Positions 9,301 through 51,069 of a DNA stretch of 64,000 nt are shown piece after piece; the first letter of the stretch is position 1; every line of letters starts with the position of its first letter. A program made the translations under genes and the position numbers. Below the pieces are notes generated by a model, which saw only the letters and a list, made by a program, of their open reading frames with translations, had not been told where the DNA came from and made no database searches. This stretch comes from Gammaproteobacteria bacterium. GTDB lineage: Bacteria > Pseudomonadota > Gammaproteobacteria > Enterobacterales > Kangiellaceae. The stretch covers positions 1 through 64,000 of the forward strand of contig JABXHY010000025.1 of assembly GCA_013373375.1 (NCBI GenBank). Direction: 5' to 3'.

Positions 9301-9463
9301 CAAAACCAACACTGTCTTGAAAAAGTATTTGAATTGTTTTCTGAGACAATCCGTCCGAAGTGCTCATTTGACGGAACTGAGTATTCTCCAAGCCCTTGGA
9401 AAATACAGCTACTGAAAATAGACAACACAAAATACTACAAAGTAAACTTAAAGGATTATTCAC
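6356..9463 (-). CDS. periplasmic two-component-type propeller sensor with degenerate GGDEF-like C-terminus
   Basis: Large membrane sensor of 1035 aa. A signal peptide (residues 1-22) is followed by about a dozen reg_prop repeats with the pattern DSxGxxWIGTxxGLxxYD to about residue 640. A Y_Y_Y domain comes next (YMYKLEGLDDDW, TNLPAGEYTLKVKGSN), then one membrane helix at about 792-814 (YSLFFCFLLILLIRI) and a coiled segment. The cytoplasmic part has no His-kinase boxes. Instead residues 850-870 read SLVDLDTLLPNEKYLMEQL, which resembles the entry of a GGDEF domain (DPLTGLPNRR-like), but no GGDEF motif follows. I read it as a catalytically dead GGDEF-like output. The ligand is unknown; in related proteins the propeller often senses polymers. 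It lies 60 bp behind an S8 protease on the same strand, separated by a terminator. Confidence 0.85.
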   Translation of the reverse strand: MNNPLSLLCSILCCLFSVAVFSKGLENTQFRQMSTSDGLSQKTIQILFQDSVGFVWIGTQEGLNRYDGNEIKIFRHRASDPLSISSDVIRAITEDASGQILIATHDGLSIFNPSSESFSTVKVVKEGVEISRFNEIYRDRDDRLWLGSDGNGIFLIENTENNNISANSFSINSQLDESDIRVIFQDSRDRFWFGTNGKGLFLQNKTGEVIHYSSSSEPGQLKHNQIRTVFEDSSGRIWIGTRGGGLARYSEIEKRFDLFTFDANDKNSISSNRVYEIIEDQQKRLWIATDGGINVYQENSNIFSRISSKPSQKLSLSHNRVLSAMKDKGGVLWFGTLSGLNIWDPTIETFQHYRNIPEDPSSLSNNTVYSLGETIDNQILIGTFGTGIDLLNPNSDAIFPVSDSKQQLPKRVMTLHVDKNGSVWSGSITQGLEFYSKQLKKLEQFTHQPDDSKSISANGVTNILRDYNGNLWVSTFRGGLNRYFSEDKSFRKYDFTQSIYCILEDEEGYIWVGTDGDGLYRFDKNTEQVTNFKHDKEDSSSISGNIITSLTLDSQGRLWIGTQGDGLNIYEPMVRRNLDAKFTRLTTENGLTSSTINGVVEDELGNIWLSTVKGLSRISPDLKDIEHFNISGEIHENEFNQGAILRAKDGRLYFGGLNGVTAFYPSEVKQNSHKPEVILTSILIGNERASFKSAVHKLTSLELNHKDYLVAFEFAALDYANPKKNQYMYKLEGLDDDWIQLKNRSRATFTNLPAGEYTLKVKGSNDDGVWSDESINLRIRVEAAPWSTWWAYSIYSLFFCFLLILLIRIQARRLAQNDMFQTQVESAVEEKIELMQDHNDLIAEQYSRLRDVSLVDLDTLLPNEKYLMEQLELLFKLIGYEESVDTNFCFAIFTTREQAEVNAVRAISDVGDDYQLLSVAKWKSRKIVAAFNHKNSAKNTLDYGQIFKQLIHNNGLVIEKASYVKPFSTLTNSIEDPQLLMILLEFIDSHLDNDSSASVLGIEDVYQTLDMRDVAEIVRHVDLTKLSELFKISSS

Positions 9464-9480
9464 TGGACGTTATCCTACAA

Positions 9481-9504
9481 AAAAGCCGTGTAACCACGGC
9501 TTTT
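9481..9504 (-). terminator. intrinsic terminator of the leftward S8 protease
   Basis: 10-bp stem AAAAGCCGTG / CACGGCTTTT with loop TAAC. Read leftward it ends in TTTTTTGT, 20 bp past the protease stop and 18 bp before the propeller gene start. It should separate the two genes transcriptionally. Confidence 0.8.
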
Positions 9505-9523
9505 ATCTCATTTGCTGGAAACT

Positions 9524-11269
9524 TTATTCTTGTTTTACCCAGATATTAACGGCTATGTTGGCGTCAGTCCATCCAATTGCGTCAGACCAACCATTCGCAT
9601 CGCTCCATCCGATTGCATCGCTCCATCCATTCGCATCGGTCCAACCGATTGAGTCACTCCATCCGTTTGCATCGCTCCAACCATTTGCATCAGACCAGCC
9701 ATTGGCGTCACTCCATCCATTCGCGTCACTCCAACCGTTTGCATCTTGCCAGGCCGACCAATTTTCCCACACATAACCTTGTTCAGTTGTCAGAGCTTGC
9801 GATTGCCAGACGACTTCATTATTTCCTCGAATGTAAAATTCGCCTGATTCGTTAACCATTGCGTTTCCAGCAAAATGTTGCTCACCGTTTAGGTCGGAAT
9901 CAATATTTAATCCTAGGTTTGCACAACCGAATGCATCACTGTACACCGCCGCAACAGCATCAACTTGCCCTGCCCCTTGTTGGAAAGGTGAATATGCCCA
10001 GGTACCGTCTTCGTTTCTTGCTGCTTTAGCAGTCGACATTAATCGGCACTTCACATCATCCGGCGACAGACCAGGATCTTGACTTAACATCAAAGCAACA
10101 ACACCAGTAACAACGCCTGCCGACTGTGACGTGCCGGACATCATGAAATATTTTCCACCGTCATGAAACTCAGGATGTTTTGAAGCCAACACTGTTTTGT
10201 CTTCCATCAATCCCATCAAATGTCCGCCTGGCGCAACCAAATCAGGCTTAACAAAACGCTCTATTGTGGGTCCGTTCGCCGAGAATTTGGCTAGACGGTC
10301 GTCGGAAAAATCATCAGGAGTGTAATTGTCGGTTACGGCACCAACGGTGATCACATAGGGAACATTGCCAGGAACGCCCACCCCAAAAGAGCCACCGCCA
10401 TTGTTACCAGCAGACGTAACCACCACAATTCCGGCTTGCCAAGCTTTCATAACAGCTTGATTCAGCGGATCGTCCCAGTAATAAGACTGGGGATTTGCAC
10501 TGAAAGAAAGGTTCAACACCCGAATGTTGTAAGAGTCTTTAAAATAAATAGCCCACTGTATGCCGCGAATAACATCGGCGTAAGAACCACCGCCCTGATC
10601 ATCAAATGCTTTAACACTGATCAATCTCGCATTCGGCGCTATCCCATAAAATCGACCTTTAGAATCGTATTCACTGTTGACCGCCACACTTGTAACGTGA
10701 GTTCCATGACCATTATTTTCATCATCATTCATCGATGTTTTATTCGTGATTGCATTATAGGTACCATAAACACGGTGCCTTCCATATGCGTCATGCCGTA
10801 TCCCCGATAAACTTTTAAATCCGGTATCCAAAACAACGACGGTAACACCATCTCCGAATATTCGCTGGTCATGTAATGGTTGAGCATTAGCCATTTGGGT
10901 TGCAGAGGCTTGTGAATAAGCAATTCGCTGCCCCCAAGCCAATCCACTCAAATTTACGGTTGAGTTTGGGATCACTCGTAGCCCACTCTCTTCCAATGAT
11001 TGTTTTTGTGGGCCTGAAAGGTTCGCTACTACCGAGTTTATTAACGATAATTCATGGGTGAGTTGAATCCCTCTAGAAGAAAGCTCGCTCTCGGCGTTAT
11101 CACCTTGGATGATAAAAGAGAGTGTTTCTTGTTGAGCTTTACTACTCAACTGAAGATTTTCACTTAATTGGCGAGCTTCGCCCGATTGGTTCTCTTCAAA
11201 GCCGAACGTTATCACTAAAGCAACAGCTGTCGCTGCAAGAAACAACGCTTTGACTACTAATTTCGACAT
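9524..11269 (-). CDS. secreted S8 (subtilisin-like) serine protease with C-terminal hexapeptide repeats
   Basis: Exported endopeptidase of 581 aa. A signal/anchor helix (residues 3-22) leads into a propeptide region to about 110. The subtilase domain carries the triad Asp148 (VVVLDTG), His188 (NNGHGTHV) and Ser381 (MMSGTSQSAG), plus the oxyanion Asn289 (SAGNN), so it should be active. After residue 440 there is a short beta-rich stretch. Ten tandem hexapeptides of the form (D/S)(A/S)(N/I)GW(S/T) follow at residues 509-568, then a short tail. Similar Trp-rich W-S/A-D tandem tails occur in other bacterial S8 proteases; their function is not settled. The divergent neighbour at 11591 is another S8 protease. 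Confidence 0.93.
   Translation of the reverse strand: MSKLVVKALFLAATAVALVITFGFEENQSGEARQLSENLQLSSKAQQETLSFIIQGDNAESELSSRGIQLTHELSLINSVVANLSGPQKQSLEESGLRVIPNSTVNLSGLAWGQRIAYSQASATQMANAQPLHDQRIFGDGVTVVVLDTGFKSLSGIRHDAYGRHRVYGTYNAITNKTSMNDDENNGHGTHVTSVAVNSEYDSKGRFYGIAPNARLISVKAFDDQGGGSYADVIRGIQWAIYFKDSYNIRVLNLSFSANPQSYYWDDPLNQAVMKAWQAGIVVVTSAGNNGGGSFGVGVPGNVPYVITVGAVTDNYTPDDFSDDRLAKFSANGPTIERFVKPDLVAPGGHLMGLMEDKTVLASKHPEFHDGGKYFMMSGTSQSAGVVTGVVALMLSQDPGLSPDDVKCRLMSTAKAARNEDGTWAYSPFQQGAGQVDAVAAVYSDAFGCANLGLNIDSDLNGEQHFAGNAMVNESGEFYIRGNNEVVWQSQALTTEQGYVWENWSAWQDANGWSDANGWSDANGWSDANGWSDANGWSDSIGWTDANGWSDAIGWSDANGWSDAIGWTDANIAVNIWVKQE
9566..9745 (-). repeat. 18-bp tandem repeat, ten units, coding for GWSDAN hexapeptides
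   Basis: About ten head-to-tail 18-bp units inside the S8 protease gene. Each encodes a variant of DANGWS (DSIGWT, DAIGWS and DAIGWT also occur). Third-position and some first-position differences between units show the array is not brand new. Because the period is divisible by three, alternative frames are also open here; these are not genes. Confidence 0.9.
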
Positions 11270-39046: not shown

Positions 39047-39913
39047 CTACTCAATATTTTGTATCTGTTCGCGCATCTGTTCAATAAGCACTTTAATTTC
39101 TACGGAAGCTGCCGTGGTTTTAGGGCTAATAGACTTAGAGCCCAAAGTATTTGCCTCACGATTTAGCTCCTGCATTAAGAAATCCAGCCGACGTCCAATA
39201 GAGCCACCTTTCTTTAACAAGCGACCGACCTCTTTTACATGAGTGTCCAGACGATCGAGTTCTTCTTCCACATCAATTTTTTGCGCAAGCATCACCATTT
39301 CCTGCTCCAGTCGCTCTGGATCAAGTTCTACTTTTGCTTCTTTAAAACGATTTTCAATGCGGTCTCGTTGCCATTGAATAATCTCCGGCAAGCATTCTCG
39401 AACAATCTTGACTTGCTCACTAATACTTGAAAGTCGAGCCTCAATAATCGAAACCATGGCATCGCCTTCTCGTTGACGCATTGTCAGCAAAGCCACTATT
39501 GCTTCATCAAATGCTGCGAGCAGCTCTTTTTCAACCTTTGACGTATCCAGCTCTGTGGTTTGGATCAGTCCAGGCCAGCGCATTAAATCAGTGACGACAA
39601 GAGGCTGATCGACTTTCGCAACGGCTTGCAGCTGTTGGTGCGCAGTGACCAACTGCTGCGCCAGCTTTTCGTTAATGCTAATAGCATCGGCTTCGGTCGG
39701 TGAATAATCTATTCGCAAGCTGATGTCTAACTTTCCTCTTTGCAGCTGCTTTCGTAGTTTATCCCGCAACGCAAACTCCATGCTCCTAAAAGCTTCTGGT
39801 AAGCGGAAATTAGTTTCCAGAAATCGCTGATTGACCGACCGAATTTCCCAGTGCGCATTGCCCCAGTCAGCTTTTATCGGCTGCCGCGCAAATGCCGTCA
39901 TGCTATAAATCAT
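39047..39913 (-). CDS. yicC: YicC family endoribonuclease
   Basis: YicC-like RNA nuclease, 288 aa. Typical start MIYSMTAFAR, EIRSVNQRFLETNFRLPE, and the conserved C-terminal half EQEMVMLAQKIDVEEELDRLDTHV, GRRLDFLMQELNREANTLGSKS. In E. coli YicC promotes decay of the small RNA RyhB. It is divergent from rph across 165 bp, as in many relatives. Confidence 0.95.
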   Translation of the reverse strand: MIYSMTAFARQPIKADWGNAHWEIRSVNQRFLETNFRLPEAFRSMEFALRDKLRKQLQRGKLDISLRIDYSPTEADAISINEKLAQQLVTAHQQLQAVAKVDQPLVVTDLMRWPGLIQTTELDTSKVEKELLAAFDEAIVALLTMRQREGDAMVSIIEARLSSISEQVKIVRECLPEIIQWQRDRIENRFKEAKVELDPERLEQEMVMLAQKIDVEEELDRLDTHVKEVGRLLKKGGSIGRRLDFLMQELNREANTLGSKSISPKTTAASVEIKVLIEQMREQIQNIE

Positions 39914-50770: not shown

Positions 50771-50800
50771 ATTCTAAGCGATCAGAGGCATATTTGTCCA
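50771..50800 (-). promoter_or_regulatory. carA: probable carAB sigma-70 promoter
   Basis: On the minus strand -35 TGGACA (50795-50800) and -10 TAGAAT (50771-50776) are 18 bp apart. Each differs from the consensus at one position. Start predicted near 50764, with the initial transcript GATTTTGTCC. Confidence 0.6.
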
Positions 50801-50829
50801 TTTTACAAGAAAAGAATTCTTGTAAAATG
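50799..50829. promoter_or_regulatory. 13-bp perfect inverted repeat over the carAB -35 box
   Basis: CATTTTACAAGAA, five bases, TTCTTGTAAAATG. The left end overlaps the -35 TGGACA of the carA promoter. Its position suits an operator; the regulator is unknown. It does not match the ARG box. Confidence 0.55.
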
Positions 50830-50941: not shown

Positions 50942-51069
50942 AAAATGAAAAGGCGACTCTCGTCGCCTTTGATCCATTGACCTTCATCCTAAAGAAATTG
51001 TCCTTGTAGCATCCCTGTCATTCACCGTCCTGGCGAGCTCCATTGCAGCTGTATATTCCGTGCCACATG
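50942..51069 (-). ncRNA. putative CsrB/RsmZ-type small RNA (CsrA sponge)
   Basis: Minus-strand segment of about 128 nt in the carA-dapB gap. It contains seven GGA motifs in 87 nt (at 51057, 51039, 51028, 51012, 51001, 50987 and 50973). Their contexts are like those of CsrB/RsmZ: CAGGAC, AGGGATG, AAGGACA, AGGATGA. One sits in a small hairpin loop CTTT-AGGAT-GAAG. It ends in an intrinsic terminator (AAAGGCGAC / GTCGCCTTT, loop TCTC on the + strand) followed by TTTTCATTTT. A weak promoter (-35 TTCCTA 51098-51103, -10 TAATAT 51076-51081, 16 bp) gives a start near 51069. CsrA-sponge function is inference. Confidence 0.55.
50949..50970 (-). terminator. terminator of the putative small RNA
   Basis: 9-bp stem AAAGGCGAC / GTCGCCTTT, 4-nt loop; read leftward it is followed by TCATTTTC. 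Confidence 0.7.

Follow-up and report, generated by a model that had tools for sequence, protein, structure and literature searches.

RNAs of the CsrB/RsmZ type act in trans. The described systems closest to the locus studied here are PrrB/RsmZ (Rfam family RF00166, clan CL00106), with GGA motifs in hairpin loops, a 3′ terminator and a distant GacA-type box, and E. coli CsrB (RF00018), which presents multiple GGA decoy sites over 369 nt and lies between yqcC and syd. Upstream of E. coli csrB, a UvrY palindrome, TGTGAGAGATCTCTTACA, is centred at −183/−182 (PMC4682653). A further Csr sRNA, Pf1 of Pseudoalteromonas fuliginea, is lineage-restricted and shows little similarity to CsrB; it carries 21 GGA and a GacA-type box, CGTGAGACATCTCTTACA, and has been tested experimentally (PMC9927453). 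It sets an experimentally tested precedent for sponges that are confined to one lineage and do not resemble CsrB in sequence.

Here, we analyze a candidate CsrA sponge in a 64,000-nt stretch of DNA (the window) from a gammaproteobacterium of the family Kangiellaceae. Among the matches listed in our literature search, no Csr RNA was placed between dapB and carA; no paper was found joining csrB with Kangiella, and the papers on Kangiella and sRNAs were unrelated, judging by their titles.

Results

A GGA-rich unit between dapB and carA

On reading both strands, the RNA was found to be unannotated, sitting between dapB and carA on the same strand as both genes (Table 1). The seven GGA within 87 nt of the original prediction were recovered in exact count and span on the minus strand, as were the contexts AGGGATG, AAGGACA and AGGATGA. 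The one or two GGA that it had expected by chance are slightly too few, as composition-matched shuffles of the window RNA average 3.0, but the cluster still stands, with seven or more reached at p = 0.006. In dinucleotide shuffles of the dapB–carA gap, seven GGA per 90 nt occur at p = 0.001, and the RNA is the sole non-coding 90-nt stretch in the window with seven GGA. Around positions 9400–9800 (minus strand), there are also 7–8 GGA per 90 nt, but this region is coding according to the ORF mask.

The GGA stretch ends, as proposed, in an intrinsic terminator, which together with the conserved −10 box marks the RNA as a probable separate unit. The possible upstream promoter stood in part: a −10 TAATAT aligns in relatives, but a consensus promoter scan missed the RNA's own promoter, whose −35 is weak. 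The weak −35 would fit an activator-dependent promoter. In the predicted fold, several GGA are presented, some of them in hairpin loops. The GGA at 51030 is open (mean unpaired probability 0.99) in the loop of CGCC-AGGAC-GGUG, bearing out the placement of one motif in a hairpin loop, and the GGA at 51059 is open as well (0.90); the last three of the seven are mostly paired (unpaired 0.21–0.37).

Table 1. Positions of the candidate sponge RNA, its elements and the neighbouring genes in the window.
Feature	Position	Strand	Basis or remark
Sponge RNA (candidate), ~129 nt	51069–50941	minus	conserved unit in the dapB–carA gap; 5′ end inferred
GGA motifs, n = 7	51059–50973	minus	count in sequence; starts at 51059, 51041, 51030, 51014, 51003, 50989, 50975
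5′ hairpin, predicted, GGA 51059 in loop	51069–51041	minus	fold of window RNA
Hairpin CGCC-AGGAC-GGUG, predicted, GGA in loop	51036–51022	minus	fold of window RNA
Intrinsic terminator stem-loop, AAAGGCGAC-GAGA-GTCGCCTTT, then U-rich tail	50970–50949	minus	sequence; conserved in relatives
−10 box TAATAT (putative)	51081–51076	minus	alignment with relatives
UvrY/GacA-type activator box (putative), TGTAAGCCATTTCGCAAG	51258–51241	minus	189 nt upstream of RNA
dapB	52119–51277	minus	
carA	50688–49534	minus	listed ORF
Promoter-like site for carA	50800–50771	minus	downstream of sponge terminator; conserved in genus

The region between the sponge terminator and carA holds further elements. A terminator-like hairpin, AAAAAAGCGGAATCCAG..GAATTCCGCTTTTT, lies directly before carA (50725–50689, minus strand); it is near-identical in the genus, similar in a member of another genus of the family (G009), and possibly an attenuator or leader of carAB. 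A perfect 13-bp inverted repeat, CATTTTACAAGAA/TTCTTGTAAAATG (50799–50829), adjoins the carA promoter-like site and was not observed in the gaps of relatives.

The RNA is conserved at this position within the family

Relatives were sought by a DNA search of 61 genomes, with the genus represented by the window's own genome (G000) and G001–G004. The RNA stretch, with little of its flanks, matched G003 (query 232–359, equal to window 51069–50942); G004 was matched at query 207–360 and G001 in the 3′ part, and the G002 version was located via dapB. All four other genus members (4/4) carry the RNA between dapB and carA, with 8 GGA in G003, 7 in G004 as in the window, 14 in G002 and 21 in G001. Across the window, G003 and G004, 6/7 GGA triplets are invariant, compared with 29% of the remaining triplets (p = 0.005). 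A version with seven GGA occupies the dapB–carA gap of G009, and in a genus with small genomes (2.3–2.9 Mb), 19 of 20 genomes hold a version with 5–7 GGA each, its dapB–carA location verified in four; the genome without one is 55% complete. Conservation of the GGA in relatives had been set beforehand as a test of the prediction and is seen in the genus, in G009 and in the small-genome genus. The −10 and terminator are likewise aligned and conserved across relatives. In five genomes from other families of the order, taken as a control (loci L096, L098, L101, L106 and L108), the dapB–carA gap has 1–3 GGA and no cluster. In G005, two sponge-type RNAs stand in tandem downstream of dapB (contig 123; L212 ~380–1000), with box-like sequences before each, and G016 and G014 feature RNAs of like design elsewhere in the genome, each comprising a box, a cluster of GGA and a terminator.

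When the genus and small-genome RNAs were aligned together, misregistered terminators limited the consensus to three pairs, and structure was therefore examined within the small-genome genus. Applied unguided to the 19 sequences, RNAalifold recovers hairpins with GGA loops (AA[A/G]GGA, AAGGACA-type and GC-AGGGA-GC) and the terminator, with compensatory change at four pairs. In a hand-drawn structure of these RNAs, six pairs change on both sides, a number reached by 0 of 500 shuffles, while slid versions give 0–1; as kin sequences may beat shuffles even without structure, this covariation is support, not proof. A hairpin that covaries in the small-genome relatives corresponds to the window's 5′ hairpin. 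A model made from these relatives gives only a weak match to the window RNA (11.5 bits, E = 0.07).

Comparison with known families

The covariance-model search called for by the original prediction had a divided outcome: no Rfam family matched the window or the tested relative loci at gathering score (44 bits for RF00166 PrrB_RsmZ, 71 bits for RF00018 CsrB), but the sub-threshold matches are RsmZ and CsrB. Full-length alignments to RF00166 score 16.3 bits in the window (E = 0.24, the lowest E-value in the window's list) and 29.4 bits in the best relative; RF00018 reaches 29.0 bits in G002 (E = 0.0002), with CsrB absent from the matches listed for the window. As modelled, neither RF00166 nor RF00018 includes the window RNA. 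It resembles PrrB/RsmZ in its approximate length, its GGA-bearing hairpin loops, its 3′ terminator and its distant GacA-type box, but differs in its score, location and largely in its sequence. With E. coli CsrB it shares multiple GGA decoy sites and a UvrY box at a closely similar distance, but it is far shorter and stays below the family threshold. Pf1 is similar in being lineage-restricted and in combining many GGA with a GacA-type box (PMC9927453), but belongs to a different lineage and has been tested at the bench, whereas the window RNA is known from sequence alone. Overall, the window RNA shows every feature of the CsrA/RsmA-sequestering class that can be checked by sequence, with CsrA binding as a prediction.

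A distant UvrY-type box and a second RNA

TGTRAG boxes are found upstream of the RNA at 186–189 nt in all five genus members, at 167 nt in G009 and at 197–199 nt in four small-genome loci. The window's box is the only zero-mismatch match to the genus box within the window; it is an imperfect palindrome, with the right half TCGCAAG, not CTTACA. A single UvrY orthologue is encoded in the genome (60% identical; 272 bits versus 87 bits for the next response regulator), with uvrC directly after it, and a BarA orthologue is matched over its full length at 40% identity. The box upstream and both two-component partners in the genome point to control of the UvrY/GacA type. Lack of csrA had been named as grounds for abandoning the prediction; one copy is present (G000 contig C33, 90 bits), lying, on our reading, between an alaS-like stretch and a tRNA gene.

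Genome-wide, the genus box has two zero-mismatch sites and five more with one mismatch. One of these sites, on contig C65, is a perfect UvrY palindrome, TGTGAGATATCTCTTACA, followed ~200 nt later by 14 GGA belonging to a second putative RNA with a terminator (~39327–39736; L139 1501–1910, plus strand). This RNA is conserved in the genus, the box being present in those relatives whose locus spans it, and adjoins a gene that we take to resemble a tRNA-queuosine glycosyltransferase. Among 24 box loci scanned, only those of the window and C65 have at least 7 GGA in 110 nt. Allowing up to two mismatches gave 25 matches versus 24 in the control; only near-exact boxes are informative. Because the box alone, used as a query, uncovered another GGA-rich RNA equally spaced from its box, it is strongly supported at the sequence level that box and RNA belong together. 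A third candidate (G000:C74:18136), lying mostly within the end of a coding frame and with few GGA, was rejected, and neither flank of a box at C95:219497 holds a comparable GGA cluster.

Discussion

The RNA in the dapB–carA gap is very probably a CsrB/RsmZ-type sRNA that sequesters CsrA in trans. The CsrB/RsmZ-type identity originally proposed is supported by the presence of csrA, the conserved GGA, the distance of the UvrY/GacA box, the BarA and UvrY orthologues, the second RNA and the covarying GGA hairpins. It is a sound find, but one that adds a further case to an established class.

Lying between two genes on their own strand, the stretch could instead belong to the carAB or dapB transcript, as a cis-acting CsrA-controlled leader or a 3′ untranslated region, and its U-rich terminator could end the dapB mRNA too. 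We regard this as very unlikely, as the RNA has its own conserved −10, a distant activator box upstream and a terminator downstream. A separate promoter-like site, kept in the genus, follows that terminator before carA, and other families of the order keep dapB–carA without a GGA cluster. The same site bears on the original suggestion that the RNA would link carbon storage control to this locus, which found no support because an RNA of this type acts in trans and a conserved promoter-like site of carA's own lies beyond the sponge terminator. In this light, dapB and carA are mere neighbours, and their control by the sponge RNA is not supported.

Four genus members have an ATG right at the start of the RNA (51068 in the window, opening a 16-codon frame), but a short protein gene can be given almost no credence: the fifth, G001, lacks the ATG, the frames of the others run to 16, 28, 28 and 32 codons with frame-breaking indels in the aligned sequences, no room is left for a ribosome site before the ATG if the RNA starts there, and conservation tracks the GGA and the stems. 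Many places had been looked at, and the cluster taken alone reaches only p ~0.001–0.006, which would speak for a chance group of GGA beside an unrelated terminator. Such a coincidence is exceedingly improbable given that position, GGA, box, terminator and covarying hairpins are conserved across genera.

Taking the RNA as a CsrA sponge, we computed its architecture, its conservation, the covariation in relatives, the box and its spacing, the presence of csrA, barA and uvrY, and the second RNA; from these we infer transcription, UvrY binding, CsrA binding and the regulatory outcome. BarA would phosphorylate UvrY, which would bind the box and switch on the weak promoter, yielding an RNA of ~129 nt that ends at the terminator. 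The seven GGA, some in hairpin loops, would then bind CsrA dimers and pull CsrA off its mRNA targets, with the window RNA working in trans together with the larger RNA of like design on contig C65.

The most interesting feature is the GGA number, which spans 5 to 21 among relatives at one location, a fourfold spread, and offers a usable series for decoy capacity. The 5–7 GGA of the small-genome versions, the 7 of the window, the 14 and 21 of G002 and G001, and the tandem pair in G005 suggest that, in this lineage specifically, the dapB–carA gap houses a CsrA sponge that was repeatedly retuned in capacity without leaving its site, a proposal to which we give even chances.

The combination of UvrY-box search and GGA clustering finds sponges that are missed by covariance models. 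In this gammaproteobacterial family, for which Rfam finds none in the tested loci, the RNA would supply the missing arm of the BarA–UvrY–CsrA circuit. If the retuning holds true, the gap would provide a natural series on how decoy dosage evolves.
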